A stretch of DNA of 37,838 nt from Candidatus Woesearchaeota archaeon CG10_big_fil_rev_8_21_14_0_10_44_13 (lineage in GTDB: Archaea > Nanobdellota > Nanobdellia > Woesearchaeales > UBA12501): the NCBI GenBank assembly GCA_002762985.1, contig PCXZ01000023.1, positions 104,014 to 141,851 on the forward strand, in the 5' to 3' direction. Numbering within the stretch: position 1 is the first letter of the stretch; the number at the start of each line of letters is the position of its first letter. Positions 15,746-37,838 of the stretch are shown here, in pieces. The notes under the pieces were generated by a model. It saw nothing but the letters and a program-made list of their open reading frames with translations, searched no databases and was not told the origin of the DNA. A program made the position numbers and the translations under genes.

Positions 15746-15842
15746 TCTAATGCTCCCATCAGGCATTAAATGCCTTATCCAGGTAGTTTATAAAGGTTAT
15801 GGTGGGATTTTTTTGTTTACTTGCTAGTAGTTAAAATAGTAA

Positions 15843-15852
15843 AATTTATAAA
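15843..15852 (+). promoter_or_regulatory. TATA box for the methyltransferase at 15875
   Basis: AATTTATAAA lies about 25 bases before ATG 15875, making a leaderless message likely. Confidence 0.5.
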
Positions 15853-15874
15853 TGGACTGAGCCCTTATTTTATT

Positions 15875-16513
15875 ATGGGAGAACAGAACGCCAATTTTTA
15901 TGCTACTTTAGAAGGATACTTCAGGAACGGGAATCCTGTAGTAAAAGTCCATGAGCCCGAGCATATGGGCGATTTTGGTTTAGGGGATATTCCAGAAAGG
16001 CCATTCAAGGAGCTTTTTTTCAGGGCAACGCCGCAGCTTTGGGACGGCAAGAGAGTATTGGATCTGGGGTGCGGGGGGCCTACTGCCGGAAAAGTGTTGA
16101 GAGAATTATACCCTTCTGTCGATTATACAGGTGTTGATATCTATGGGGGGGAAGGCATTGATATCGTAGCGGATGCGACAAACACAATTCCTTTCAAAGG
16201 CCTTAAATTTGAAAAAGAATTTGATACAATATCATGTTTCGATTTTCTTCCGATGAGATTCTTCAGCATACCTATGGGAAACATAAGGCATTTGAGGAGA
16301 TACATGAAAGACGACGGGCATCTTGTTGCCGGCTTTACTTCATTCTGCGCATACAGCGCATGCAGGTCGATAATGGATTCATTCGATATACTTGAGGAAA
16401 GAAGATATTCCTATTCTTTTGAGAAAGATGGCCTTGACGAACCTATACTTGTCTATGAACATAATGTAATCGCTGTACCGAAAAAGAAGCTTAAGCTCAA
16501 ATTTTCCCTTTAG
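15875..16513 (+). CDS. Class I SAM-dependent methyltransferase
   Basis: The 212-residue protein has the Rossmann methyltransferase core: motif I RVLDLGCGGPTAGKVL, an acidic end of strand 2 (YTGVDIYGGEGIDIV), then DATNTIPF and FDTISCFDFLP as motifs II and III. The C-terminal half (VAGFTSFCAYSACRSIMDS) is less typical, and the substrate is unknown. ATG 15875 is chosen from the TATA box 25 bases upstream; an in-frame ATG at 15821 would precede the promoter. Its 3' end overlaps the convergent SET-domain gene by 17 bases. Confidence 0.85.
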   Translation: MGEQNANFYATLEGYFRNGNPVVKVHEPEHMGDFGLGDIPERPFKELFFRATPQLWDGKRVLDLGCGGPTAGKVLRELYPSVDYTGVDIYGGEGIDIVADATNTIPFKGLKFEKEFDTISCFDFLPMRFFSIPMGNIRHLRRYMKDDGHLVAGFTSFCAYSACRSIMDSFDILEERRYSYSFEKDGLDEPILVYEHNVIAVPKKKLKLKFSL

Positions 16514-17000
16514 AACGCCTTTTTCTCCTGTTCTCGGCTTTATGGACCATCTTCAGCGAGCAGGGGATATAAGGCTCATACTTCCTGAAAAGCCTTTTCG
16601 GCAGGAACCTTATGCTCCTTATCGTGCCCCTGCAGTTCTTCTCTCCGCACAGGCATTCCATCTTCCAGTAAGGATCGCATTCTGTTATGGAGTAATCGAT
16701 TGTTATCTCTTCCCCTTTCTTTATCTTCCTCATCGCCACAACAGTGGTCCTGCCCTTCAATCCTGCATTGGGATTGCATGACTGGTTGATATATCGCCAC
16801 GGGTTGCTGCTATGGGGGGCAATCCATACTTTCTCCCTGAGGCTCAGCCATCTCGGCCCCTCATTGTACCATTTTGGGTCATAGTAAGATTTTATTATCC
16901 TGCCTTTGACAGTCAGGATAGGTTCGTCCTTCTTTATGTCTGCTGCTGCGAAAAGGCCCTTGCCTTCAATCTTGGATCTCCTTACCTCATATTTTTTCAT
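16497..17000 (-). CDS. SET-domain protein lysine methyltransferase
   Basis: A complete small SET domain (167 residues). It shows GKGLFAA (13-19), the SAM-binding NQSCNPN (72-78), ITIDY (99-103) and a post-SET zinc cluster formed by C116, C118 and C123 in ECLCGEKNC with C75. The tail is strongly basic (KAENRRKRRSKGK). SET enzymes methylate lysines; substrates in archaea are poorly known, with chromatin proteins such as Alba or histones as candidates. SET genes are uncommon in archaea, so transfer is possible. It overlaps the convergent methyltransferase gene by 17 bases. Confidence 0.9.
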   Translation of the reverse strand: MKKYEVRRSKIEGKGLFAAADIKKDEPILTVKGRIIKSYYDPKWYNEGPRWLSLREKVWIAPHSSNPWRYINQSCNPNAGLKGRTTVVAMRKIKKGEEITIDYSITECDPYWKMECLCGEKNCRGTIRSIRFLPKRLFRKYEPYIPCSLKMVHKAENRRKRRSKGKI

Positions 17001-18331: not shown

Positions 18332-19108
18332 TTGAGGGGTGTAAAAATAGGTGCAGCAAGGGAAGCTAAAAAGCCAGAGGTTTCAGTGATATTGCCTTGC
18401 AGGGATGAAGAGAAAACCATAGGCCTATGCATAGGGAAGATCAGGCAGGTCTTCAAGAAAGAGAAGATAAACGGCGAGATCATAGTCTCAGATTCATCAA
18501 CAGATGATTCTGCCAGTATAGCGGACGAATCTGGCGCAAAGGTGATAAAACACGGCAAAATTGGCTATGGCAACGCCTATTTTGAAGGATTCAGGCACGC
18601 CCGCGGGAGATATATAATCATGGGCGACTCGGACAATACTTATGATTTTGGTGAAATCACTAAATTTTTGCACTATCTGCGTGACAAGGATTATGATTTC
18701 GTGATAGGCAACAGGTTCAATGGGATGATAAAAAAAGGCGCAATGCCTTTCCTGCATAGGTATATAGGCAATCCCCTTCTCTCATTCATCTCAAGGATAT
18801 TCTTCAGGACAGGGATTTATGATATAAACTGCGGTTTCAGGGCAATAGACAGGAGACTTCTCGACAGGCTTGGTCTTGAGATGACGGGGATGGAATTCGC
18901 TTCCGAGATGGTGATCAAGGCAGTGAAGTATGATGCAAGGATAAAAGAGATACCTGTGAATTACTATGAGAGGGTCGGCGAAAGCAAGTTAAGGACACTG
19001 AGAGACGGATGGAAGCACATCAGTTTCATGGTGGTTACCAGGAAAAATGAGGTATGGGGAAACAGCAGGTGCATGGGGGTAGGCACATTGAAATCAGAAG
19101 GAGGGTAG
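18332..19108 (+). CDS. GT2 glycosyltransferase (polyprenol-phosphate type)
   Basis: First gene of the glycan operon. The 258-residue product is a GT-A fold transferase: VSVILPCRDEEKTIG, the donor-binding IIVSDSSTDDS, the metal-binding IIMGDSDNTYD (DSD) and DINCGFRAIDRRLL, typical of dolichyl- or polyprenyl-phosphate sugar transferases. No C-terminal membrane helices are present. There is no in-frame ATG near the start. TTG 18332 lies about 25 bases after ACTATTTAAA and is taken as a leaderless start. The next gene begins 2 bases after its stop. Confidence 0.85.
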   Translation: MRGVKIGAAREAKKPEVSVILPCRDEEKTIGLCIGKIRQVFKKEKINGEIIVSDSSTDDSASIADESGAKVIKHGKIGYGNAYFEGFRHARGRYIIMGDSDNTYDFGEITKFLHYLRDKDYDFVIGNRFNGMIKKGAMPFLHRYIGNPLLSFISRIFFRTGIYDINCGFRAIDRRLLDRLGLEMTGMEFASEMVIKAVKYDARIKEIPVNYYERVGESKLRTLRDGWKHISFMVVTRKNEVWGNSRCMGVGTLKSEGG

Positions 19109-19110
19109 AA

Positions 19111-20247
19111 ATGAAGGTAGGGATATTCCATGATCACATAGATTCAATAGGAGGCGGGGAGAAGGTAATCCTGGCTCTGGCAAGGGCACTGGATGCCGAC
19201 ATTATCACAACTGACCTGAATGAGGATTCTGTCAGAAAACTCGGATATGGGGGTGTTAGGATCATAAGCATAGGTAACACGATAAAGCTGCCCCCTTTCA
19301 AGCAGATACATGCCTCCATCAAGTTTTCCATCATTGATCTCTCGAAAGAGTATGATGCCTTCATTCTCAGCGGCAACTGGAGCCTTTTCGCAGCAAAAAA
19401 ACATCAGCCTAACATGTGGTGCTGCTACACCCCTGTAAGGGCCTTCTACGATCTATACAGTGACTTCAGGAAAGAAAGGTCATTCCTGACAAAGCCGATA
19501 TTCATGGTCTATGCATGGGCGCATAGGAAGAGCCTGCAATCCAGTTTGAATCACGTAAACGGCATAATCGCCATCTCAAAAAACTGCAGGGAAAGGATAA
19601 AAAAGTACCACCATATGGATTCTGTATTGATTTATCCAGGCATCGACACGCTTTTCTATAAGCATGGAAAAAAAGGTGATTATTGGCTTTCTGTCAATAG
19701 GCTTTACCCGCAGAAAAGGATAGATCTGCAGATCGAGGCCTTCAGGAAAATGCCCGGAGAAAAACTGGTCATCGTTGGGGGCTATGCAAAAGGGGACCAT
19801 GCTTGGAGATATATCAGAAAACTTAAAATACCAAGAGGATTGCCCGAAAACATAACCTACTTGGGGACTGTCTCTGAAAAAGAGCTGGGTAAGCTATATG
19901 GGGGATGCATAGGGTTCATAACAACGGCACAGGATGAGGATTTCGGCCTTACACCGCTGGAAGCCATGGCTGCAGGAAAACCTGTGATAGCTACGGACGA
20001 AGGAGGCTACAAGGAGACTGTCATTGACGGCGTTACAGGCATCCTTGTCAGTCCTGAAGCCGGAAGCATTGTCAGGGCAGTGAAGAAAATATCCCATGCC
20101 CTGCAGAAGAATCCTGATTTTTACAGGGAAGCCTGCGTGAAGAATGCGGCAAAATATGACATGAAAATATTCATTCAGGAAGTAAAAAAGAGATTAAAGA
20201 TGCAGTCAAAAAGGCGATTGGGTGAGCAGCAGCATGTTAAGGATTGA
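19111..20247 (+). CDS. GT4 glycosyltransferase
   Basis: A 378-residue GT-B enzyme. It begins MKVGIFHDHIDSIGGGEKV, with the N-terminal GGGEK glycine loop, and carries the donor-site motif DEDFGLTPLEAMAAGKPVIA with both glutamates of the E-x7-E motif. SVNRLYPQKRIDLQIEAF is the usual interdomain region. It probably adds a sugar to the lipid-linked glycan at the inner membrane face. ATG 19111 is preceded by GGAGGG; the frame continues upstream to 19054 but overlaps the previous gene. Its 3' end overlaps the permease gene. Confidence 0.92.
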   Translation: MKVGIFHDHIDSIGGGEKVILALARALDADIITTDLNEDSVRKLGYGGVRIISIGNTIKLPPFKQIHASIKFSIIDLSKEYDAFILSGNWSLFAAKKHQPNMWCCYTPVRAFYDLYSDFRKERSFLTKPIFMVYAWAHRKSLQSSLNHVNGIIAISKNCRERIKKYHHMDSVLIYPGIDTLFYKHGKKGDYWLSVNRLYPQKRIDLQIEAFRKMPGEKLVIVGGYAKGDHAWRYIRKLKIPRGLPENITYLGTVSEKELGKLYGGCIGFITTAQDEDFGLTPLEAMAAGKPVIATDEGGYKETVIDGVTGILVSPEAGSIVRAVKKISHALQKNPDFYREACVKNAAKYDMKIFIQEVKKRLKMQSKRRLGEQQHVKD

Positions 20248-21046
20248 GAGGGCGGCAAGGGATTATCTCGGAAGGAAGCTCGACAAGAGAGTTATAAGGC
20301 TGATATATCTCATCTGGGAATTGACAACCACTGATTTCAGGCTGAAGTATAGCAGCACTGTGCTGGGATTCTTCTGGTCATTGCTCAATCCTCTGCTCAT
20401 TTTCGCAGTGCTGTATGTCATCTTTTCGATGTTCATTAGGATAGATGTCCCTCAATACCCCCTTTTCCTTTTCCTGGGCATACTGATGTGGAATTTTTTC
20501 ATGGAGGGCACGCTGAACGGCATGTCATCGCTCGCGAACAAGCCTAACCTTGTCAGGAAAGTGAATACATCAAAGCCGGCGATTGTGCTCAGCGCATGCA
20601 TCAATTCTTTCATGACATTCATCCTTAACATGGCTGTCTTCTTCGTATTCTGCTTGGTTCTCAGGGCAAAAATAGGCCTTATGTCATCGCTTATCCTGGT
20701 AATGGCAGGAATACTCTTACTTATCATTCTTGCACTCTCACTCATCTTATCCGCTTACTATGCAAGATACAAGGACTTAAAGCATATATGGGCATTCCTC
20801 CTCAATGCAGGGTTCTGGATCACGCCTGTAGTATACCCAATCACATTAGTCCCGCAAAAATACATTCCATTATACATGCTGAATCCTCTTGCAAGGATAA
20901 TAACCTACTCAAGGCGGGCCGTGATATACAATTCCCCGCCAAATCCATGGGGGGTTTTCGCTCTTGCAGTATTTTCAGCGCTGCTGCTGATAATCTGCTT
21001 CAGGATATTCAGGAAAAAATCGCCGCATTTTGCGGATTATATCTGA
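20234..21046 (+). CDS. ABC-2 type polysaccharide export permease (Wzm/TagG-like)
   Basis: A 270-residue membrane protein with about six spans. The N-terminal amphipathic segment (LIWELTTTDFRLKYSSTVLG) and FWSLLNPLLIFAVLYVIFS are typical of polysaccharide and teichoic-acid exporters. WITPVVYPITLVPQKY and NPLARIITYSR near the C-terminus also match. It would pair with the ATPase encoded next to flip a lipid-linked glycan across the membrane. ATG 20234 has GGTGAG 8 bases upstream; a GTG at 20222 is an alternative. It overlaps the GT4 gene, showing translational coupling. Confidence 0.93.
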   Translation: MLRIERAARDYLGRKLDKRVIRLIYLIWELTTTDFRLKYSSTVLGFFWSLLNPLLIFAVLYVIFSMFIRIDVPQYPLFLFLGILMWNFFMEGTLNGMSSLANKPNLVRKVNTSKPAIVLSACINSFMTFILNMAVFFVFCLVLRAKIGLMSSLILVMAGILLLIILALSLILSAYYARYKDLKHIWAFLLNAGFWITPVVYPITLVPQKYIPLYMLNPLARIITYSRRAVIYNSPPNPWGVFALAVFSALLLIICFRIFRKKSPHFADYI

Positions 21047-21084: not shown

Positions 21085-22551
21085 ATGATAGAGCTAAAAA
21101 ATGCAGGGAAGATGTATGATGTTTCAGGCAGGAATAATCCCAGCATTTTCAGCAGCATAATCGGAAGGAACAACAGCTCAAATAGCCCAAGCCTTTGGGC
21201 TGTCAGGAATATAAGCCTGAACATAGGGATGGGCGAGTTCGTCGGCATAATAGGAGAGAACGGCTCTGGAAAAACGACCCTGTTAAGGCTCATCGCAGGG
21301 ATAACAAAGCCTACAACAGGAAAAGTCAGGATAAAAGGCGAGGTTGCATCGCTTCTCGAGCTCGGCATAACCTTCCAGCCGGAGCTCACTGCAAGGGAGA
21401 ACATATACCTCTATGGCGTTGTGATGGGCCTGACAAGGCCCGAGATAGGTGACCGGCTCGGAAGGATAACAGGGCTTGCAGGCATAGGGAAATTCCTGGA
21501 CACAAGGCTTGCAGAGCTGTCGACTGGCATGTGCGTAAGGCTTGCTTTTGCTATTGCGATGCATTCAGATTCCCCCATAATCCTCATTGACGAGGCATTG
21601 GCCGTTGGAGACATAAATTTTGAGAAGAGGTGCATGGATGTCTTCAGCCGCCTGAGAGCAGAGAGAAGGACAGTGGTGATAGCGGGCCATGACATAAACA
21701 ATATTGAGAGATTGTGCGACAGGGTTGCTCTGCTCGAGAAAGGCAGGCTTGTCGCCGTCGGAAAGCCCAAAAAGATAATAAAAATATATAAGAGAATGAT
21801 GGGCAAGAAGAGCGAAAGGGAGTCAAGAAAGATAAAAAGATACAGGACAGACATCGCATATTTCAGAAATTCCGTCAAGAAAGGTTTTTATGTCAGGGAT
21901 TACTTTGACAGGCACAAGGATGTGACAAAGGAGAGCGGCTATCCGCATTACAGGGACGGAGTTCCGTTTGAAGAGCAGGCGAATTTCATAGCAGAATACT
22001 TCAGTCCGGAGAAAGCGCTTGATGTCGGCTGCGCAAAAGGCTTCACTGTGAAAAGGCTCAGGGAAAGGGGAATTGATGCGTACGGCATAGACATAAGCGC
22101 GTATGCGGTGAGTTCAGCGCCGAAAAGCGTGAAGCAGTTCATAAAAAAAGCGGATATCCTAAGCATACCCTGGCCCGACAACCAGTTTGATGTAGTCTCA
22201 TGCATAGAGACAATGGAGCATCTCCACCCGAAGGAGATAGACAAGGCGATAAGGGAGATGAAGAGGGTGACAAAGGATTATATATTCCTGACAATGCCAT
22301 TGATAGCGGGCGAAGGCAGCAGCAGGTGGAGGATAAGCAGGCTTCCTACAGACAGTAGAGGAATGCCCCATCATGGTCACTGGATCTATGCTACAAGGAG
22401 ATGGTGGATTGACAGGTTCAGGGAGCAGGGCCTTGAAAGATGCCCTGAGATGGAGCAGAGGGCGATAAGGAAAAAATCGCTTGAATACCCGGAAAAAGTT
22501 TTCATATTCAGGAAAAACCAGGAAAAAAGGCAAAATATGCGCGGTAAGTAA
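21085..22551 (+). CDS. Polysaccharide ABC ATPase fused to a SAM methyltransferase
   Basis: A 488-residue fusion. Residues 1-235 are a Wzt/TagH-type ATPase: Walker A GENGSGKTT (57-65), signature LSTGMCVRLAFA (145-156, where LSSGM is usual), Walker B IILIDEALAVGD (165-176) and H-loop H202. After a basic linker (about 236-300) a class I methyltransferase follows, with ALDVGCAKGF (311-320), YGIDISAY and PDNQFDVVSCIETMEHLHP. In bacterial O9a-type systems a capping methyltransferase (WbdD) ends the chain and Wzt recognises the cap; here the two activities may be joined in one protein. ATG 21085 is the first after the permease; the frame upstream overlaps that gene. Confidence 0.9.
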   Translation: MIELKNAGKMYDVSGRNNPSIFSSIIGRNNSSNSPSLWAVRNISLNIGMGEFVGIIGENGSGKTTLLRLIAGITKPTTGKVRIKGEVASLLELGITFQPELTARENIYLYGVVMGLTRPEIGDRLGRITGLAGIGKFLDTRLAELSTGMCVRLAFAIAMHSDSPIILIDEALAVGDINFEKRCMDVFSRLRAERRTVVIAGHDINNIERLCDRVALLEKGRLVAVGKPKKIIKIYKRMMGKKSERESRKIKRYRTDIAYFRNSVKKGFYVRDYFDRHKDVTKESGYPHYRDGVPFEEQANFIAEYFSPEKALDVGCAKGFTVKRLRERGIDAYGIDISAYAVSSAPKSVKQFIKKADILSIPWPDNQFDVVSCIETMEHLHPKEIDKAIREMKRVTKDYIFLTMPLIAGEGSSRWRISRLPTDSRGMPHHGHWIYATRRWWIDRFREQGLERCPEMEQRAIRKKSLEYPEKVFIFRKNQEKRQNMRGK

Positions 22552-22552
22552 A

Positions 22553-22984
22553 ATGACTGATGAAAAAAATGACAGAAGGGTAAGGGATATAATGAACAAG
22601 ATCAGGGAAAGAATCCGGAAGAGGGGCTGCAGGATACCGCATGCTTCAGAGCAGTACGTGGACTTCATCTCACAGAAGAAGGATCTCAGGAGGCTTGCAG
22701 AGAAAGCGGATGTGAGAACTGACCGGCTTATAACCTCACACAGGAAAGTTGTCGGAGCGCCTTTGGTCAGGGCAAGGACATTCCTGCATGAGGAGATAAT
22801 GAGGGCGGTTGGGCCAATGACATCCAAGCAGGTAGATTTCAACCGGTGCATCGCTTATGCTGTGGCAAGCCTGCAGAAAAGGATAGACCGGATTGAAGCT
22901 GCGAATAAGAGGAGGCCGAACGCACAAAAATCTGTCCGGGCGTACCGGAGAAGAGATAAAAAACCGGCTAAACAGATCAAATGA
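22553..22984 (+). CDS. Small helical protein resembling the N-terminal module of glycan methyltransferases
   Basis: The 143 residues are helical, basic and without membrane spans. RVRDIMNKIRERIRKRG, SHRKVVGAPLVRARTFLHEE and KQVDFNRCIAYAVASL recall, from memory, the helical region that precedes the SAM domain in many bacterial LPS-cluster methyltransferases (SHR..G ... Q..FN pattern). Here it stands alone, one base after the ATPase-methyltransferase gene, and it overlaps the next gene by ATGA. It may be a scaffold or coiled-coil partner for the methyltransferase half. ATG 22553 is chosen because upstream codons overlap the previous gene. The family assignment is tentative. Confidence 0.6.
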   Translation: MTDEKNDRRVRDIMNKIRERIRKRGCRIPHASEQYVDFISQKKDLRRLAEKADVRTDRLITSHRKVVGAPLVRARTFLHEEIMRAVGPMTSKQVDFNRCIAYAVASLQKRIDRIEAANKRRPNAQKSVRAYRRRDKKPAKQIK

Positions 22985-25251
22985 GGATAGGAATAGACCT
23001 CCAGCCATTGAAGAGGGACCTTTTCAGGGGCATAAACATCTCGACAAAGTGCATGGTAGAGGCAATACTAAAGAATGATTCTGATGGCAGGAATGAGTAT
23101 GTGTTCTTCAATTCAAAGGATATCCCTCATTCCTTCTTCAAAAAATTCAGCAATAGGAAGATAAGGCTTGTTGAAGGTGAGATAACTCCCGAAGCTTCCA
23201 GATCTCTTGATATTTATCACATGCTCAGCTTTTTTGACCTTAAAAAGAGGCAGATATTCCCTTCAAGCCTCAAGTGCAGGACAGTTGTGACCGTGTATGA
23301 CCTGATTCCTGCGCTGTTCTGGGATCATTATCTGATTGACAAGCCGAAAAAGACAAGGGATGACTATGTGCTCAGGCTAGGAGAGATTGACAGCTTTGAC
23401 AGCATCATCGCAATATCATCAAGCACAAAAAAAGACATGGAAGACATCCTTGGCATCAAGGGCAGCAGGATAGATGTCGTGAAACTGGGTGTTCCCACTG
23501 CTTTCAGTCGGAGTCCCGGCAGCGGTTTTCACAGATTGAAGAAAAGATACGGGATAAAAGGAAGCTACATACTATGCACTGCGGGGATGGATGACAGGAA
23601 AAACATGCTCGGCCTCATAGAGTCATTCATCATGCTAAATCCACCGATACGTAATAAACACCAGCTTGTCATAGTGTGCAAGATAAACGAGCTTTACAAG
23701 GAGAATATATCCGGGATGTATAAAGGTAGGATAAAGGATGATGAGCTGATATTCACTGATTTTGTCCACGAAAAAGAACTGATTGCCCTGTACAGGAACG
23801 CCTCTCTTTTCGTATTCCCTTCATTCTATGAGGGATTCGGCCTCCCTGTTTTGGAGGCAATGGCTTCAGGCTGCCCTGTAATCACATCAACAACATCATC
23901 TATGCCTGAAGTGGCCGGGAACGCAGCCATGCTTGCAGACCCATACAGCATCAGCGAGATAAAGGATGCCATGGAGAAAGCGCTCTCAGACAGGAAGCTT
24001 GCTGAGGACATGAGGAGAAAGGGGATTAGGCAGGCATCAAGGTTTGACTGGGATGCATCTGCAAAAAGGATATTGGCAATATATAAAAAAACGTCGGCAT
24101 CGCCCCAGGAGAGGGCAACAGGGGCCGGGCGTTATGGCAGCGGCAGGAGAGAGATAAAGCTCGGTGTTGTCTCTGTCTGGAACACGAATGACGGCCTTGC
24201 AGCATACACAAATTTCCTGCTGAAAGGGCTGTCAAAAAACATCAAAACAACGATATTCGCGAAGGAAAGCAGGAACCTTGTGAGGGAAGACAGCAGCAAT
24301 GTGATAAGATGCTGGGACTGGGATGATGACCTGAAGAGATTATACTCTGAAATAAGGCATGAAGAGCCAGACATAGTCCATTTCCAGCTCAATTTCGACT
24401 ATTTCAGGCTCAATCCGCTGATTGAGCTGATAAAGAAGCTCTGTTCAGCAGGCATAAGGTCCATAGTGACATTCCATTCGACTGATGACTCAGGGCACAG
24501 CACGAAGCTTGAAGATATAAAAGAAGGCCTCAGGAAAATAGATGTTGTTATTGTGCACACAAAAAAAGACCTGCAAAGGCTGAAGGATTTGGGCATGAAT
24601 AATGCCGTGATTATCCCCCAGGGCGCTGTCTCTTTCAAAAATCAAAGAAAAGAGAGCGCAAGGGAAGATATCTTCCCTGATTCTAGGATAATATCCACTT
24701 TCGGTTTCCCTTTCCCCCACAAATCGACCATGGAGCTCATAAAAGCCATGAAAATCGTCAAGGGAAGATATCCTGACGCGCTCTTCATAGACCTGTGCTC
24801 GCTAAAACCCGATTCAACCAACATGGAAATCATAAAAAAATACAACCTGGGCTGCAGGAAAACAGCAGCCAAACTGGGAATTTCGAAGGATGTCCTATTT
24901 TTTACAGAACATCTCCATGATCTTGAAGTGATTGAGCTCTTGCAGGCCTCAGACATCGTCGTAATGCCCTACAAACCCATAAAAGATTCAGCGAGCGGCG
25001 CAGTGAGGTATGCTTTGGCATCGCACAGGCCTGTGATAACAACTGATACCAGTATATTCAGCGAGTTTGACGGCGAAGTGTATAAGATAAAAGATCATTC
25101 GCCGAAGAATATTGCCAATGGCATAATAAGATTGCTTGATGACAAGAGATTGTGCGATGATATCGTGAAAAAAGCTGAGATATACACAGAGGAGAACAGA
25201 TGGGAGAACATATCAAAGAGGTACGAGTCAATATTAAAGTCTTTGGCCTAG
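22981..25251 (+). CDS. Tandem GT4 glycosyltransferase (two GT-B domains)
   Basis: At 756 residues this is two GT4 units in one chain. Unit 1 (about 1-365) starts MRIGIDLQPLKRDLFRGI and has FPSFYEGFGLPVLEAMASG, the donor motif with both glutamates. A Ser/Gly-rich linker (about 366-388) leads to unit 2 (about 390-756), with IKLGVVSVWNTNDGLAAYT, EPDIVHFQLNFDYF and VMPYKPIKDSASGAVRYALA; its donor loop lacks the first E of a standard E-x7-E. Such double enzymes often build a repeating disaccharide or two linkages. ATGA overlap with the preceding gene. Confidence 0.9.
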   Translation: MRIGIDLQPLKRDLFRGINISTKCMVEAILKNDSDGRNEYVFFNSKDIPHSFFKKFSNRKIRLVEGEITPEASRSLDIYHMLSFFDLKKRQIFPSSLKCRTVVTVYDLIPALFWDHYLIDKPKKTRDDYVLRLGEIDSFDSIIAISSSTKKDMEDILGIKGSRIDVVKLGVPTAFSRSPGSGFHRLKKRYGIKGSYILCTAGMDDRKNMLGLIESFIMLNPPIRNKHQLVIVCKINELYKENISGMYKGRIKDDELIFTDFVHEKELIALYRNASLFVFPSFYEGFGLPVLEAMASGCPVITSTTSSMPEVAGNAAMLADPYSISEIKDAMEKALSDRKLAEDMRRKGIRQASRFDWDASAKRILAIYKKTSASPQERATGAGRYGSGRREIKLGVVSVWNTNDGLAAYTNFLLKGLSKNIKTTIFAKESRNLVREDSSNVIRCWDWDDDLKRLYSEIRHEEPDIVHFQLNFDYFRLNPLIELIKKLCSAGIRSIVTFHSTDDSGHSTKLEDIKEGLRKIDVVIVHTKKDLQRLKDLGMNNAVIIPQGAVSFKNQRKESAREDIFPDSRIISTFGFPFPHKSTMELIKAMKIVKGRYPDALFIDLCSLKPDSTNMEIIKKYNLGCRKTAAKLGISKDVLFFTEHLHDLEVIELLQASDIVVMPYKPIKDSASGAVRYALASHRPVITTDTSIFSEFDGEVYKIKDHSPKNIANGIIRLLDDKRLCDDIVKKAEIYTEENRWENISKRYESILKSLA

Positions 25252-25262
25252 GATGATTTAAA

Positions 25263-25970
25263 ATGATTTCAGTAATCGTTCCGGCATACAATGAGGAAAG
25301 GAATCTTGCAGTGAATATTCCTATATTTGAAAGATACCTTGCTGCTAATATCAAGGAGTATGAAATAATAATAGTCGATGACGGCTCAAAGGACAGCACG
25401 AGGCGTGTTGCGGAGGCATTTGCACGGAAGAACAGCAGGATAAATATAATATGCCATAATAAGAATAAGGGGAGGGGGTATGCTGTGAGGGAAGGCATGA
25501 AGCGCGCAATATATCAGAACATATTTATGATGGATTCTGATATGCCCTCTGCCGTGAATCTTGGCATTGTTAAGAATATGCTGCACAGCCTCAAGACAAA
25601 TGACATCGTGATAGCCTCAAGGTTCATCAAAGGCTCAAATATAAAGAGGAAAACGCACAGGGTGATCCTCAGCGCCATTTACAGGAAGCTTGTGAAGGCA
25701 GCATTCCCTCGCCTTAAGGTCTCAGACACGGATTCGGGACTGAAGGCATTCAGGAAAGGCATTGCAATGGCTATTGCTGAGAATACAAAAGAGAACAGGT
25801 GGTCATGGGACCTTGAAACAGTGGTTTTTGCGAGGAAAAACGGATTTGATGTGAAAGAAATCCCTCTGGAATGGAAAGAGAAGGGCAGTTCGACATTAAA
25901 TCTTTTTATAGACCCTATTGAGCAGCTGTGTGGAGTCATGAAATCAAGGATTAACTATGGAAAAATATAA
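25263..25970 (+). CDS. DPM1-like GT2 glycosyltransferase
   Basis: A 235-residue GT-A transferase: ISVIVPAYNEERNLA, IIIVDDGSKDSTRRVAE, the DxD motif MMDSDMPSA, SRFIKGSNIKRK and DTDSGLKAFRKGIA. These are features of dolichyl- or polyprenyl-phosphate mannose/glucose synthases. It lacks membrane helices, so it works on the cytoplasmic face. It probably charges a polyprenyl-phosphate sugar for the membrane GT-C-like proteins encoded next and at 32990. Its stop lies inside the next gene. Confidence 0.9.
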   Translation: MISVIVPAYNEERNLAVNIPIFERYLAANIKEYEIIIVDDGSKDSTRRVAEAFARKNSRINIICHNKNKGRGYAVREGMKRAIYQNIFMMDSDMPSAVNLGIVKNMLHSLKTNDIVIASRFIKGSNIKRKTHRVILSAIYRKLVKAAFPRLKVSDTDSGLKAFRKGIAMAIAENTKENRWSWDLETVVFARKNGFDVKEIPLEWKEKGSSTLNLFIDPIEQLCGVMKSRINYGKI

Positions 25971-27795
25971 GTTGAGCGGGAAACAGAAGGATATTCTTGT
26001 CATGGTTCTCTTTGCTGTTGTCTCATTGCTGTTTTTGATCCCTTTTCTGTCGAATATCAGCAACCTGGGCATAGGCGACTGGGACCTTCATTTTTCCTAC
26101 AGCGGCGTACCTGCTGAGGCAATCACGCAATATCATCAGTTTCCCTTGTGGAATCCCTACATCTGTGGAGGGGGGCCTTCGCTTGCGCATCCTGAGTCAA
26201 GCTTTCTCTCGCCGTTTTTCATATTCATCATTCTGCTTGGGGAAGTTGTCGGCCTGAAGATCCTTGTCCTAATCCATCTTTTTTTGGGCATGGCCGGGAT
26301 GTATCTCCTCTCAAGGTATCTCAGCATAGGCAGGGAAGGCTCTGTTTTTTCTTCTATAATCTTCATGCTGAGTACGCATTACTCAATCCACATCGTTGCA
26401 GGCCATACTACAGATTATATGCCTATGGCATTCATGCCTTTTGCTTTCCTTTTTTATCTCATGGCAATCGACAAAAAGATTGAAGAGACCGGCAAAAAAA
26501 CCCTGAAAAAGAGGTTTCTTTATGCAACTGCATCATCATCATTTATTCTCCTTATGTTCCTCTCCGGAGCGGTCTATAGCCTTGCCTTTTTCGCCATGTT
26601 CCTTATTTCCTACTCCTTTTTTGAGTCCATCCTGAGAAAAAACATCCGTCCGATCATGACATGCCTTGCGATACTCATCATGGCTGCCATTTTCAGCTCT
26701 GTAAAGCTTGTCCCTATGCTTGGATTCCTCATGCACAACAACACTGATTATGGTGCGGATTGGGAAGCGAACAGCCCGAAAATTCTTTTTTCATCATTAT
26801 TCTCAAGGGAGCAGGGGTATTATTCGGACAACGGAACCGATTATGGGTGGTGGGAATACAGCACCTATATCGGAATGATACCATTTGCTGTTTTCCTGCT
26901 CGGAGCCATTTTCAGGTTCAGGAAAAGGGGGTCATTAATGCTCTCAATAATCCCATTCATGCTGTTTTATTTTGGGAATCTCCTTCCGATAAACTTCTGG
27001 GGTATCATCCATGATATGCCTTTACTGAGCTTTTTCAGGGTCCCCAGCAGGAACCTTCTCATAGTCTTATTCTGCCTGGCAATAATCAGCGGTGACGGGA
27101 TTGATGCAATAAAAAATTTCATAAACTCAATAAGAATAAAACATGAGCTGAAAAACAGTTTTGTGTATTCAGCCATCTCACTGATAATTGCAATAGTTGT
27201 CATAGATCTGTTCATGGTTAATTGGCCGAACCTTTTAATCGCTTTCCCTTTCAAAAACCCGGATTTTGGGCAATCAACCATTTTTGAGAGCACAAACAGC
27301 AAATTTTCAGGCATTGTCAACTACAATGGCAGATCATATTCGTATGTTTACCTGGCTTTTCTGTCGAACAAGGGCGCATTGAATGATGTTGATTGCTGGG
27401 AAGAAAGGGTTTTTGTTCCGACAATAGGCTCTGCATTGCCTAAGGAATCTTCTGGATACAAAGACGAGGCCTATCTTGAATACGGCAAGGGGATGATATC
27501 AAAAATTTATTTTTCCCCTAACAAGATCGTCGCAGAGGTCAATGCCGCAGATTCTGACAGGCTTATGCTGAACCAGAACTATTATCCTGGCTGGAGAAGC
27601 AGGATTGATGGCAGGAAGGGAAAGGCAGAGCCCCATAGGAACCTCGTTTCTGTCCCAATAAACCCAGGGCACCATAAGATTGAACTTTATTATCTTCCAG
27701 ACACGCTGATCATAGGCATTTTGCTTGAGATTGCGGCAATAATAGCATGGCTGGTCGCATTTTTGTACATCAGCAGGCCAGAGGGAGAAAAATGA
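25957..27795 (+). CDS. YfhO-like multispan membrane protein, possible GT-C transferase
   Basis: A 612-residue protein with about 11-13 membrane spans and a C-terminal soluble domain. The first outer loop contains IGDWDLHFSY and PLWNPYICGGG, and the C-terminal domain has NQNYYPGWRSRIDGRKG; both are characteristic of YfhO-type proteins, which attach sugars to surface polymers from a polyprenyl-phosphate donor. The DWD in the first loop is in the place of the GT-C acidic motif. The donor is plausibly made by the overlapping upstream GT2 gene. ATGA overlap with the deacetylase gene. Confidence 0.8.
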   Translation: MEKYKLSGKQKDILVMVLFAVVSLLFLIPFLSNISNLGIGDWDLHFSYSGVPAEAITQYHQFPLWNPYICGGGPSLAHPESSFLSPFFIFIILLGEVVGLKILVLIHLFLGMAGMYLLSRYLSIGREGSVFSSIIFMLSTHYSIHIVAGHTTDYMPMAFMPFAFLFYLMAIDKKIEETGKKTLKKRFLYATASSSFILLMFLSGAVYSLAFFAMFLISYSFFESILRKNIRPIMTCLAILIMAAIFSSVKLVPMLGFLMHNNTDYGADWEANSPKILFSSLFSREQGYYSDNGTDYGWWEYSTYIGMIPFAVFLLGAIFRFRKRGSLMLSIIPFMLFYFGNLLPINFWGIIHDMPLLSFFRVPSRNLLIVLFCLAIISGDGIDAIKNFINSIRIKHELKNSFVYSAISLIIAIVVIDLFMVNWPNLLIAFPFKNPDFGQSTIFESTNSKFSGIVNYNGRSYSYVYLAFLSNKGALNDVDCWEERVFVPTIGSALPKESSGYKDEAYLEYGKGMISKIYFSPNKIVAEVNAADSDRLMLNQNYYPGWRSRIDGRKGKAEPHRNLVSVPINPGHHKIELYYLPDTLIIGILLEIAAIIAWLVAFLYISRPEGEK

Positions 27796-28601
27796 GGATA
27801 TGCCTCACTTTTGATGTTGAGGAATTCACTATGCCTGCTGATTATGGCATCCGCAAGCACAACAATGAAACAAGATTCTCAAAAGAAGGATGCATAAGGC
27901 TTTTGGAAGTCCTAAAGAAACACAAGATAATGTCGACTTTTTTCATAACGGGCTATTTTGCTGAAAGAGAGCGAGAGATTGTGAGGATGATAAGCGAGCA
28001 TGGCCATGAGATCGCCTCTCACTCATATTCTGACAGGAATCTTTCAGGGCTTAGAAGGCAGAAGCTTGAAAAATCAGTTTATGATTCCAAAAAAATACTG
28101 GAAAAAATATCAAAACAGGAGATAAGGGGTTTCAGAAGCCCGCATTTCAGCATGAATAAGCATCTTTTCGGAGTCTTGGAGCAATCCGGCTTTTCATACG
28201 ACAGCTCTGTGCATCCTGCGATTGTGCCTGGCCATTACTGGAACATCAATAAGGGATTGGATCCTTATCATGCTGGTGAAAACAAAAAAATCCTTGAAAT
28301 ACCCGTATCTGTGATCCCAGGACTGAGATTTCCCATATCATGGCTCTGGATGAGGAATTTTGGCAATTGGATCTCTGTTGCAGGGACAAAGGCGAATATA
28401 ATGAAGAGGGATGTTGTTTTGTATTTCCATCCGTGGGAGTTCGCAGATATTCCAAAGATAAAAGGCCTGCCGTTTTACATAACAAGTAACACAGGGAGTG
28501 ACTTCTTGAAGAGCATCGACAAGTTCATAATAAAGAATAAAAGACATGGTTTTGGAAGGATGGACGAGATAATGGACAAGGGAGGTTCTGACAGAAGATG
28601 A
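27792..28601 (+). CDS. Polysaccharide deacetylase
   Basis: A NodB-type deacetylase of 269 residues. It shows CLTFDVEEF with catalytic D8, HGHEIASHSY with zinc ligands H72 and H77, and RGFRSPHFSMN as motif 3. YFHPWEFAD near the C-terminus carries the motif 5 histidine. It would remove N-acetyl groups from amino sugars in the glycan, fitting the sugar aminotransferase in the neighbouring operon. No signal peptide is evident, so a cytoplasmic substrate is likely. ATG 27792 is chosen by the ATGA overlap; the frame extends upstream within the previous gene. Confidence 0.9.
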   Translation: MRICLTFDVEEFTMPADYGIRKHNNETRFSKEGCIRLLEVLKKHKIMSTFFITGYFAEREREIVRMISEHGHEIASHSYSDRNLSGLRRQKLEKSVYDSKKILEKISKQEIRGFRSPHFSMNKHLFGVLEQSGFSYDSSVHPAIVPGHYWNINKGLDPYHAGENKKILEIPVSVIPGLRFPISWLWMRNFGNWISVAGTKANIMKRDVVLYFHPWEFADIPKIKGLPFYITSNTGSDFLKSIDKFIIKNKRHGFGRMDEIMDKGGSDRR

Positions 28602-29980
28602 AAGCGGTCCTGATCAATCCCAACTTAGGCGACCTGGAGATGCTTTCAATAAAGAGGAAAGTCCCGCCTCTGAGCCTGGCTTATATCGCCTCTTTGCTGA
28701 GGAAGGATGATATTGATGCCGAGATAATAGATGCGAATGCGCATGGCATCGATTCAAAAAGCGATTTCTGGAAAGGCCTGAAGGCCGATGTTTTTGTAAT
28801 AACAACCTCTCCAATAGACACCTGGCAATGCCCCCATCTGGATATATCCCAGATCAGGCATATTGTCAAGCGCATAAGGCAAGGCAACCCTTCTTCAAGG
28901 ATAATAATAAACGGGCCTCACGGGACGACGGATCCCGAAAAAGTGATAGGCCTTCTTGGCGATGTGATTGTGGTGAGGAATGAGCCCGAACGCACAACAT
29001 CCGGGATATTATCATTGATGAAGAATGATCTCCCCTATAAACATGTGGCAGGAATATCATTCACTGAAAAAGGAAGGATAATCAACAACAAGGGGATAAA
29101 CACATCCGAATCATGCCTTGATGATCTTCCCATACCTGCTTATGACCTCCTGCCGATGGACCGATACAAATACGTGCTCATGGGAAAAAATTTTTCAATA
29201 ATGGAGACATCAAGAGGTTGTCCGTACAGATGCTCTTTCTGCCTCAAGGTGATGTATCCGCAATCCTACAAGATGAGGAAAAAAGAGGACATCATTACGG
29301 AGCTTAAGGAGCTGACAGAGGCCTATGGCGTCAAAAATGTGGAATTTATCGATTTGGAGTTCTGTGTGAACAGAAAAAGGATCATGGATCTCTGCAGGGC
29401 AATAACCCTGAGCGGAATTAAGTTCAGGTGGGCGATGAGCACAAGATTATCTTCTGTGGACAGCAGGATGCTGAATGAGATGGCCAAGGCAGGCTGCTGC
29501 CTTGTGCAGTATGGCCTTGAGTCTGGCAGCGAAAGGATACTTGATTCGTTGAACAAGGATATCCCCCTGGAAACCGCTTTGAAAGCAGTGAGAGAAACAA
29601 AAAAGGCAGGGATAAGAACTTTGCTTTATCTGATGGTCGGCAGCCCAGGCGAGGAAGAGGATGACATAAACAGGACAATAACTGTCCTGAAGCGCCTCAG
29701 CCCCGATTATATCTCTGTAACTGCGGCAACACCCTATCCAGGCACAAGATTTCATGAACGGCTATGCAAGGACAGCCAACAGCACAATTTTTGCAGCAGC
29801 AGGGATGGAATCGGCATGCTGGCCAAGAAGAGGATAAGGAAGGTGTACTTAAGCTTTTATCTTGACCCAAACCATATCATCAGCGAGCTTTCAGCAATTA
29901 GGTCGTTCAGGGATTTAAGGACAATCATCTCTGGATTTTTTGCTTATTTTGTCCCCCTGCTCAAGAAAACCATAGATTGA
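28598..29980 (+). CDS. B12-binding-type radical SAM enzyme
   Basis: The 460-residue protein begins with a cobalamin-binding-like Rossmann domain (about 1-150: VLINPN, VPPLSLAYIASLLRK). The radical SAM barrel follows, with the 4Fe-4S motif SRGCPYRCSFC (C208, C212, C215), IDLEFCVNRKRI and YGLESGSERIL. This architecture (as in BchE and many methylases) often methylates unreactive carbons or rearranges sugars and lipids. As the last gene of the ten-gene operon it may modify the glycan or its lipid carrier. ATGA overlap with the deacetylase. Confidence 0.9.
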   Translation: MKAVLINPNLGDLEMLSIKRKVPPLSLAYIASLLRKDDIDAEIIDANAHGIDSKSDFWKGLKADVFVITTSPIDTWQCPHLDISQIRHIVKRIRQGNPSSRIIINGPHGTTDPEKVIGLLGDVIVVRNEPERTTSGILSLMKNDLPYKHVAGISFTEKGRIINNKGINTSESCLDDLPIPAYDLLPMDRYKYVLMGKNFSIMETSRGCPYRCSFCLKVMYPQSYKMRKKEDIITELKELTEAYGVKNVEFIDLEFCVNRKRIMDLCRAITLSGIKFRWAMSTRLSSVDSRMLNEMAKAGCCLVQYGLESGSERILDSLNKDIPLETALKAVRETKKAGIRTLLYLMVGSPGEEEDDINRTITVLKRLSPDYISVTAATPYPGTRFHERLCKDSQQHNFCSSRDGIGMLAKKRIRKVYLSFYLDPNHIISELSAIRSFRDLRTIISGFFAYFVPLLKKTID

Positions 29981-34796: not shown

Positions 34797-35363
34797 ATGC
34801 CTATGGCAAAAATAGGGAAAAAAAGAAGAAAAAAGGCTAGTTCTGTTACTCTGAGCAATGAGGAGATAGATTCCCTGAAGAGATCAGTTGAGGCGATAGA
34901 ATCTGTAAAACAGAAACATGGCCTCTCTTATGGGGATATCCTTGGGCTGCTGAAAGAGGAGAAAGAGAGGATCCCTGTCACCATATTCAACAAGAAGCTG
35001 AGCCCGCTGGAAAGCATCTCAAGATACCTCAAGGACTGCCTTGGGCTGAATTACCACGAGATCGCCTTGCTTCTCGCAAGGGATGAGAGGAACATCTGGC
35101 ACTCATACAATGATTCCTTGAAAAAGCATCCTGAAAGGCTCACTGCAGAAAAAACAAGATTCTTTGTCCCGCTCAAGATTTTTGCTGAAAAGAGATCCAG
35201 CATTCTCGAATCGATTGTTGTTCATCTGAAAGATGAGTACAGCCTCGGCTACAGGCAGATCTCAGCGCTCATCAATAGGGATGAGAGGACAGTCTGGACA
35301 GCTTTCAGCAGGGCCGCGAAAAAACTGGAGAGGACCAAATCAAGCTCACAAAATGGATTATAA
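34797..35363 (+). CDS. Three-HTH DNA-binding protein
   Basis: The 188-residue protein has a basic N-terminus (KIGKKRRKKA) and three related helix-turn-helix units: about 29-69 (HGLSYGDILGLLKEEKER), 71-110 (LGLNYHEIALLLARDER) and 137-176 (YSLGYRQISALINRDER). Units 2 and 3 align without gaps and share LESI-x3-LKD before the turn and DER after it; they resemble sigma region-4 or RNA-polymerase-type HTHs. No ligand domain is seen. ATG 34797 follows a TATA box within the operator array; ATG 34803 is an alternative start. It overlaps the large surface-protein gene by 10 bases, so the two are co-expressed. Confidence 0.8.
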   Translation: MPMAKIGKKRRKKASSVTLSNEEIDSLKRSVEAIESVKQKHGLSYGDILGLLKEEKERIPVTIFNKKLSPLESISRYLKDCLGLNYHEIALLLARDERNIWHSYNDSLKKHPERLTAEKTRFFVPLKIFAEKRSSILESIVVHLKDEYSLGYRQISALINRDERTVWTAFSRAAKKLERTKSSSQNGL

Positions 35364-37838
35364 GGAAAAGATAGAGGAATATGGAAATAGGATAGCTGAG
35401 CTAGAGAGAAGAATAGGTTCCTCTGTCAGGCTGAAAGGGAGGATCTTGGACGAAGTTGCAAGATTGAATTCCGAATATAATGCTGGCAAGATCACACAGG
35501 AGCAGAAACAGGCATATTTCATCAGGATCTTTGACAGCCAATCCTATGATGACTGGCTCAATTATTATGAGAATGACATAAGGAAAAGCAGGGAGATAAT
35601 ATCCAGCCTGAGATCAGAGATACGCTCCATTGAGGATAAGGCTGATAAAGAATCATCAGCAAGCGAGGCAAGGAAAAAATATATGGCCATATTCATGGCC
35701 CTCGCATTAGTCTTCGGCCTCCTTGCATTTGCCGGAATGCCCGAAGGAGGATTGCAGGGCATCACAAAAGGGATCCTTGAGCCGAAATCCGGCATAATCG
35801 GGAATGTCGTCCTGACAGGAGCTACAACAGGTAGCATCCTTGATTACTCCCCCAACCAGGATATAGGCAGCTTGATCACATTCACGCTCACAATCCAATC
35901 CACAGGAGACAATGTAGGCAATGAGACATGGATAAACGTTACTCTTCTCGATAATTCATCAATGACGGCCCTGGAGAATTTCATACTGAACTCAAGCGGC
36001 TGGAACTGCTACAACAACTCATATGGAACACTGCGTGATGTTGATAATGTGAGGGGTTGGGAGGGCATAACTGGCTATGGCTTCGGAAGGAACGCCACTG
36101 CAGGAAAACCTAAATGCACCCCCACCAACAATTATTTAGTGAACTTAACACCATTCTTCACAGGCGGACTCTATGCTCCGTCTGTGCTTGGCACCTATAA
36201 CGTGACGTTTAACGCAACATACAACAGGACTGTTGCAGGCATCGCAAGAGTGAATCCTGAGATTGTCGTGTGGCAGAATATAGAATTCAATGTGACAGAG
36301 AGATGGAAGCCGACCATGAACGTCTCAGCGCCTCTGAACAATACCTTCAACAACTCCCAGACGATCGTTTTCGAGTACACGCCATGGGACAACTACAGCC
36401 TGAAGAACTGCTCTATACTGTTCGATAATGCAGTAAATTCGACGAATTATACAGTATCGAACTTCACTAAGAGCACATTCAGCTTCAGCAGCATGGCTGA
36501 TGCGATATACAGATGGCGCATAAACTGCACTGACAGCTCGCCGAGCTATAATGTCAATGGTACAGAGGAGTATGTGGTATATATGGACATGACAGCCCCT
36601 ACGATGACCATAATCCGGCCGTCAAGCAGCAATAATCTCACAACAATCAATTACATGAATTTCAGCTGGAACGCGACAGATAAGATGAGCCCAGGAACAT
36701 TCTGCAATATAACCATAAACGGCACAGTGAACAATACTGCCCCGTTGTATAACACAAACGGCACAACATTCAACTTCAGCAAGGTGAGCATACCCATCGG
36801 AAAATATGTCTGGAATGTCACATGCTGGGACAATGCATCGAACATGAACTCTACCCCTACATGGGATTTCTCTGTGACGGAGCTTGATGCGCCTAAGATA
36901 GACCTGTCAGCGCCCCTGCACAACACATACAACAGCTCTGAAGAGATAGTGTTCAGCTACACGCCGAAAGAAAACCTCGGGCTGTTGAACTGCTCGATAA
37001 TCTTCAACAATATATGGAATTCAACAAATTCAACGATAGCAAACGACACTCTTGCGACATTCAACTTCAGCAGTATGGCTGATGGGATATATGACTGGAG
37101 CATAAACTGCACTGACAGCTCGCCGAGCTACAACACCAATGAGTCAGAAGTGAGGAGGCTGTTCGTTGACAGGACAGGCCCGACAATAACGCCTATCGTG
37201 CCGAGCAACAGCACGGCAACAGAGAACGCCTTCATGAATTTCACATGGAACGCAACAGATATAGTATGGTTTGATATGTTCTGCAACCTCACGATAAACG
37301 GGACTGTAAGGAATCCCTTACCCTTGAACGGGACAAACATGTCGATGATGAACTACACTGTCTCAGGCCTTGAGATAGGCTCTTACCTGTGGAACATAAC
37401 CTGCTGGGACAATGCGTCCAATACGAACACAACCCCATTGATGCTGTTCAATATAACGCCTCCTTCAAACACGGCTCCGCCGGACACCATAATCGTGGGG
37501 ATAATGGATGATGATACAGATGACTGCGGCAACAATGCATATGACAAGACAACAAACACCACCCATATGGATTATGTCTTCGGGCCTACGCTCAACTGGA
37601 CAGAAGGTGTTGATCCTGAAGCAAACGGGATAAAGACAAGGGTATGCATAGGGACCACAACAGACGTATATCTCATAGACCTGCATGCAGAGGCAGCAGG
37701 CAATGCATCGACAATATGCACTGTGCTTAATGCATGGTACAATGCAAGCGCAATAGACAACCAATGGGTGAATCTCACAAACTCTACATTCACTTATGGG
37801 GGAACGAACAAGACATTCTATGCCTCTTTCATGCCTAT
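35354..37838 (+). CDS. Large membrane-anchored Ig-like surface glycoprotein, cut by the window end
   Basis: An uninterrupted frame of at least 828 codons runs off the right edge. Residues 1-108 are a charged coiled coil (YGNRIAELERRIG, REIISSLRSEIRSIEDKA). One membrane span follows at 111-129 (MAIFMALALVFGLLAFAGM). Everything after it is predicted to be outside and rich in Asn, Thr and Ser, with about 59 N-x-S/T sequons by hand count. From about residue 320 two Ig-like modules alternate: type A (SAPLNNTFNNS ... INCTDSSPSYN) and type B (MNFSWNATD ... TCWDNASN). Each has paired cysteines, and each type is seen twice with a DNA period near 590 bases. Likely an S-layer or adhesin protein. Confidence 0.85.

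Follow-up and report, generated by a model that had tools for sequence, protein, structure and literature searches.

A glycan-export ATPase fused to a class I methyltransferase in a woesearchaeal genome

In the characterised systems of capped glycan export, a terminator enzyme modifies the non-reducing end of the chain and the glycan-binding domain of the ABC transporter ATPase Wzt reads the cap; transporters without this domain do not export the capped substrate (PMC9445017; PMC3482155; PMC11231755). In the WzmWzt transporter of A. aeolicus, the domain is a jelly roll that is carried on the terminal ATPase helix and reads a 3-O-methyl cap (PMC9445017). In E. coli O9a, the class I methyltransferase WbdD is a separate protein comprising methyltransferase, kinase and coiled coil, and Wzt retains its glycan-binding domain (PMC3482155). 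In the S-layer glycan assembly of G. stearothermophilus, wzm, wzt and wsaE are adjacent and overlapping, and WsaE joins a methyltransferase to two rhamnosyltransferases; its methyltransferase part methylates rhamnose and has been assigned the terminal 2-O-methyl cap (PMC2943079). The related ATPases TagH/TarH and KpsT work in export without such a domain (Wzt_C; PF14524) and have no methyltransferase. Here we describe an archaeal gene that shares something with each of these systems: an ATPase homologous to that of A. aeolicus, with an ABC-2 permease and a domain on its terminal helix; a class I methyltransferase in ABC-dependent glycan export, as in O9a; a methyltransferase within a larger protein encoded beside its permease, as in WsaE; and an ATPase without Wzt_C, as in TagH/TarH and KpsT. 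Unlike all of them, it joins the methyltransferase to the ATPase. Our searches of the open-access literature turned up neither a Wzt-methyltransferase fusion (weak evidence, as subscription papers fall mostly outside such a search) nor a study of ABC-dependent glycan export in small-genome archaea. In the part of it considered here, a survey of archaeal fusion proteins describes many fusions of ABC transporters and O-antigen related proteins and does not name an ATPase-methyltransferase fusion (PMC11237513).

The gene lies at 21085-22551 (+) of the window, by which we mean the whole 37,838-nucleotide stretch of DNA that was analysed. Coordinates are window positions, and residues are numbered from the ATG at 21085, which opens a single frame of 488 amino acids. 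A second in-frame ATG lies upstream at 20788; because the longer form would overlap the permease gene by 86 codons and the added residues match no family, 21085 is likely the start of the fusion gene. The initial annotation had described the product as a Wzt/TagH-type ATPase carrying a class I SAM methyltransferase in place of the usual C-terminal glycan-binding domain, and our analysis bears out each part of this description. The nucleotide-binding domain (aa 1-239; 21085-21801 (+); Pfam, PDB, NCBIfam and alignment) matches Pfam ABC_tran (2.5e-23, aa 41-172), far above the cut-off. It has Walker A (GENGSGKTT, aa 57-65; 21253-21279), the signature (LSTGM, aa 145-149; 21517-21549), Walker B (IILIDE, aa 165-170; 21574-21612) and the H-loop with H202 (21682-21699), all on the + strand, and in an alignment with 27 relatives the key residues of these motifs fall in invariant or nearly invariant columns. 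The top solved relatives of this half are the WzmWzt chains of A. aeolicus (8dku, 3.2e-49), and TagH (7dd0) and TarH are also matched; galactan Wzt and TagH are the closest NCBIfam models, yet the match is under their equivalog cut-offs. The intact motifs, together with a Wzm/TagG-like ABC-2 permease directly upstream and glycosyltransferases encoded alongside, place the domain in the Wzt/TagH type. It is the sole strong Wzt-type match in the genome, where other ABC ATPases are 28-33% identical.

The methyltransferase half (aa ~262-488; 21868-22548 (+); Pfam, alignment, model and fold search) is read in the same frame and matches Methyltransf_11 (3.8e-18, aa 312-397), again far above the Pfam cut-off. 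Loss of the SAM-binding residues would have counted against the initial annotation. In the alignment, SAM motif I (ALDVGCAKGF, aa 311-320; 22012-22044 (+)), the acidic loop after strand 2 (GIDIS, aa 334-338; 22084-22098 (+)) and the FDVVSC..EHL region are all intact, and a substrate-side region, PHHGHW..WWIDRF, lies at 22366-22419 (+). The full conservation of motif I and the acidic loop argues against a loss of catalysis. Modelled alone, it adopts the Rossmann-like class I methyltransferase fold (AlphaFold; mean pLDDT 82, core 94-98); it was modelled separately, from an alignment that left out rows from plasmid records, since the alignment behind the full-length model held ATPase rows only and made that model unusable for this half. 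Compared with the PDB by Foldseek, the model gives broad matches (TM about 0.5) to SAM methyltransferases that span many substrates, so the substrate is not readable from the fold. Among them are the sugar O-methyltransferases RebM and AtmM, as well as CgnL, which is also the closest structure reported for the O7 chain-terminator methyltransferase. The halves are connected by a linker some 25 residues long, for which the model predicts a single helix that runs on from the last ATPase helix; along the terminal ATPase helix, linker and first methyltransferase helix (aa 228-265; 21766-21879 (+); AlphaFold model), the mean pLDDT of 10-residue blocks drops from 98 to 64. From the matching site, a hinge helix, the A. 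aeolicus Wzt suspends its glycan-binding domain (PMC9445017).

No Wzt_C domain was found in the fusion protein by Pfam at E-values up to 0.01, in a search that readily detects it in four relatives (L125, L128, L136 and L160), and there is no space for one between ATPase and methyltransferase. The protein thus lacks the C-terminal domain of the cap-recognising Wzts of the O8, O9a and A. aeolicus type, and its Pfam hits include no kinase domain such as that of WbdD. By its features it is at once a Wzt/TagH-type ATPase and a class I methyltransferase, and we file it neither as a cap-recognising Wzt nor as a WbdD. The initial annotation had further argued from O9a that the fusion would couple capping with export and so serve chain-length control. 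This mechanism is partly supported: the ATPase, the position of the methyltransferase, its SAM motifs, the permease and the operon all agree with it; the cap-reader logic of O9a is not directly transferable, because known cap-dependent exporters need the very domain that is missing here. In its absence, cap recognition falls to the methyltransferase itself or to nothing, which leaves two clear alternatives: either the methyltransferase reads the mark that it writes, or export is independent of the methyl group.

The fusion gene is part of a tightly packed glycan-assembly operon on the + strand in which neighbouring genes overlap or almost touch. A GT2 glycosyltransferase (18332-19108) and a GT4 glycosyltransferase (19054-20247) precede the Wzm-type ABC-2 permease (20222-21046; ABC2_membrane, 3.6e-9), which lies immediately 5' of the fusion as the expected partner of the ATPase; it matches the galactan Wzm model at 5e-16, yet under the model's cut-off. 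Downstream are a 143 amino acid protein with no Pfam or NCBIfam match (22553-22984), a double GT4 glycosyltransferase (22981-25251), a second GT2 glycosyltransferase (25263-25970), a YfhO-like membrane protein that is probably a GT-C type enzyme (25957-27795), a polysaccharide deacetylase with DUF3473 (27747-28601) and, last in the operon, a B12-binding radical SAM enzyme (28598-29980; Pfam, NCBIfam). Five glycosyltransferase domains thus share the operon with the fusion. Elsewhere the window encodes Cdc6/Orc1-type and PIN-ATPase genes, an archaeal SET-domain protein (16497-17000 (-)) adjoining a standalone methyltransferase (15821-16513), and an open frame of 869 codons (35230-37838 (+)) that continues past the window end. 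The genome, of about 1.5 Mb, contains two STT3 oligosaccharyltransferases (STT3 was otherwise seen in archaeal controls only), one Glycos_transf_4 initiator and no Bac_transf initiator. The STT3 proteins and the Cdc6/Orc1-type and PIN-ATPase genes identify the host as an archaeon. Judged from the STT3 and Glycos_transf_4 genes, it has a lipid-linked glycan pathway, and this context supports a putative lipid-linked glycan as the exported substrate.

Two relatives (G387 and G405) show the gene order permease, ATPase, 143 amino acid family, GT4; they have a radical SAM gene at a place where the window has none, and their ATPases bear a C-terminal domain (Wzt_C in G387). The small protein has a conserved ITSHR-type motif in the window and in two other archaeal clusters (L125:6927-7496 (+) and L127:4571-5059 (-)), always after Wzm/Wzt and before GT4, and is absent from the 39 other genomes in a sample of 40. 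It might serve the glycan-assembly complex as a scaffold. Radical SAM enzymes of the B12-binding and SPASM types repeatedly occur beside archaeal Wzm/Wzt genes (the window, L125, L127, L132, L133, L138 and L141).

How widespread is this architecture? We surveyed two overlapping archaeal samples, at class level (378 genomes) and phylum level (371 genomes), and found a Wzt-like ATPase (E-value up to 1e-32) in 24 and 27 genomes, respectively. About 35 other archaeal and related Wzt loci were read in context, and in none of them is the ATPase fused to a methyltransferase; the surveys do not support a wide distribution of the fusion. About 13 of these ATPases have a C-terminal extension of at least 150 amino acids, several with Wzt_C, and about 22 terminate shortly behind the ATPase domain. 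In three CBM-less loci (G063, G392 and G423), a methyltransferase-containing gene lies immediately downstream of the ATPase, and in G487 the gene right after the ATPase holds a methyltransferase of another family. A downstream methyltransferase is found in about 4 of 22 CBM-less loci versus 1 of 12 CBM-bearing ones, an excess that is small and not significant, and we do not accept from this trend that downstream methyltransferases substitute for the glycan-binding domain. At the one CBM-bearing locus of this kind (G073), the gene that follows encodes a sulfotransferase-FkbM methyltransferase; such a fusion directly behind a CBM-bearing Wzt lies at L143:1005-2636 (+). Four archaeal Wzts (L136:4972-6942, L128:241-2226, L137:4723-6825 and L144:3959-6196) have an insert of about 250 amino acids between ATPase and C-terminal domain; it is low in glycine and proline, is probably helical and resembles the coiled coil of WbdD, though inside the exporter subunit and as a putative coiled coil. 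A 935 amino acid permease-ATPase frame in G097 crosses masked bases and was not accepted as a fusion. A GTDB-wide scan with the full protein returned one distant ATPase only, exact peptide patterns being too strict; a scan of viral contigs with the fusion gave no matches, and a phage collection gave ATPase-half matches only, among the matches listed.

In Chloroflexota, matches (E-value up to 1e-30) occur in 193 of 301 genomes. None of about 50 loci inspected there encodes a direct fusion without Wzt_C, and one, L160:4352-7015 (-) in genome G725, encodes 888 amino acids in the order ATPase, Wzt_C, methyltransferase, methyltransferase. Like the archaeal fusion, it unites an ABC ATPase and a methyltransferase in one polypeptide; unlike it, it keeps Wzt_C between them, has two methyltransferase domains and belongs to another ATPase clade. 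The gene that follows likewise starts with a methyltransferase domain. The long frames of most Chloroflexota Wzts were rejected as methyltransferase fusions, being N-terminal stop-to-stop extensions or having other C-terminal domains. The domain pair is therefore present outside the window, and the exact architecture was not found among the other archaeal and the Chloroflexota loci read. In a 69-row tree, the G725 ATPase and the one encoded on a P. aeruginosa plasmid form a fully supported pair; on the plasmid, the gene after Wzt is a separate one and holds two methyltransferase domains. The window ATPase forms a long, unresolved branch among other archaeal Wzts. Since the two fused ATPases sit in different clades, methyltransferases have probably been fused to this ATPase type on two or more occasions, perhaps where the two genes were neighbours already. 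Plasmid relatives of the methyltransferase adjoin Wzm/Wzt genes in P. aeruginosa and R. tumorigenes, and in R. rosettiformans a methyltransferase gene lies beside Wzt.

The likeliest reading of the fusion is that methylation is tethered to export. We give about an even chance to its specific form, in which the methyltransferase, taking the place of the glycan-binding domain, would methylate the glycan being exported. The exporter is predicted to contain two ATPase subunits, so that it would carry a pair of methyltransferases, suspended from the terminal ATPase helices on the side facing the cytoplasm, the point of arrival of the lipid-linked glycan. Their most likely reaction is O-methylation of the glycan awaiting export, on one of its sugars or on a sugar-borne phosphate and probably at the non-reducing end, and modification and hand-over to the exporter would take place within a single complex; such a complex could conceivably also stop chain growth, affect chain length or let the methyltransferase regulate the ATPase. 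Several lines of evidence point to tethering: both halves are intact and stand behind a permease in a glycosyltransferase operon; the methyltransferase has a class I fold whose structural matches include sugar O-methyltransferases and CgnL; methyltransferase genes neighbour Wzm/Wzt in the three bacteria named above and in G063, G392 and G423; the ATPase-methyltransferase pair recurs in a Chloroflexota Wzt, with WsaE as a further precedent (PMC2943079); and the genome appears to make lipid-linked glycans. The reading is weakened by the breadth of the Foldseek matches, by the non-significant excess of downstream methyltransferases, by the missing cap reader, essential in capped systems, and by the restriction of the exact architecture to one genome. 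A more ambitious proposal, that the methyltransferase installs a methyl cap and also acts as a cap-dependent gate, seems unlikely to us; if true, one polypeptide would do what known systems divide between a separate terminator enzyme and a glycan-binding domain.

Many O-methylated sugars occupy internal positions. The methyltransferase might accordingly decorate internal sugars or repeat units, with the fusion merely holding the enzyme at the membrane and export proceeding independently of a cap, in the manner of KpsMT, TagGH or CBM-less Wzts. About two thirds of the examined archaeal Wzt-like ATPases have no glycan-binding domain at the C-terminus and presumably dispense with one in export, and we regard this explanation as possible, if doubtful, because it leaves unexplained why the enzyme is fused to the exporter instead of to a glycosyltransferase. 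Its place on the predicted terminal helix, where a glycan-binding domain would sit (PMC9445017), could also mean that the methyltransferase is mainly a glycan-docking module, with methyl transfer secondary or lost; the fully conserved motif I and acidic loop make this very unlikely. A fold that does not reveal its substrate would equally suit a target other than the exported glycan, e.g., the lipid carrier or a protein partner. This we consider the most improbable of the explanations, given an operon devoted to glycan assembly and methyltransferase relatives located in glycan export clusters.

Could an error of sequencing or assembly have deleted one stop codon and merged two neighbouring genes, a caveat already raised by the initial annotation? 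ATPase and methyltransferase are adjacent or overlapping genes in some relatives, the exact fusion is known from one draft genome only, and the junction is nearly end-to-start. The ATPase half stops at about aa 239, the same end point as in CBM-less ATPases of relatives, and standalone methyltransferase relatives (e.g., L034, L047 and L055) have the same N-terminal region around YFD..K..GY, so the methyltransferase is complete from about aa 262. However, by a codon model trained on other window genes, the fusion frame is favoured in every 150-nt interval, junction included. This unbroken same-frame signal makes a frameshift join unlikely and reduces the required error to a single misread stop codon, which we judge highly improbable; that neither half is truncated and that a comparable fusion is present in a Chloroflexota genome also speak against it. 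Two ATG codons stand at aa 238-239, and the AG-rich stretch before them is too near to make a typical ribosome site; an internal start at this point is possible and unsupported.

In capped ABC-dependent pathways, chain termination is linked with export through a chemical cap, which a domain of the exporter reads. Here the modifying enzyme is joined to the motor and no reader is found in the fusion protein, which suggests another way of linking the two. The domain pair itself is not unique; an ATPase-methyltransferase protein without Wzt_C is a new form of ABC-dependent glycan export, and it draws attention to this mode of export in small-genome archaea.
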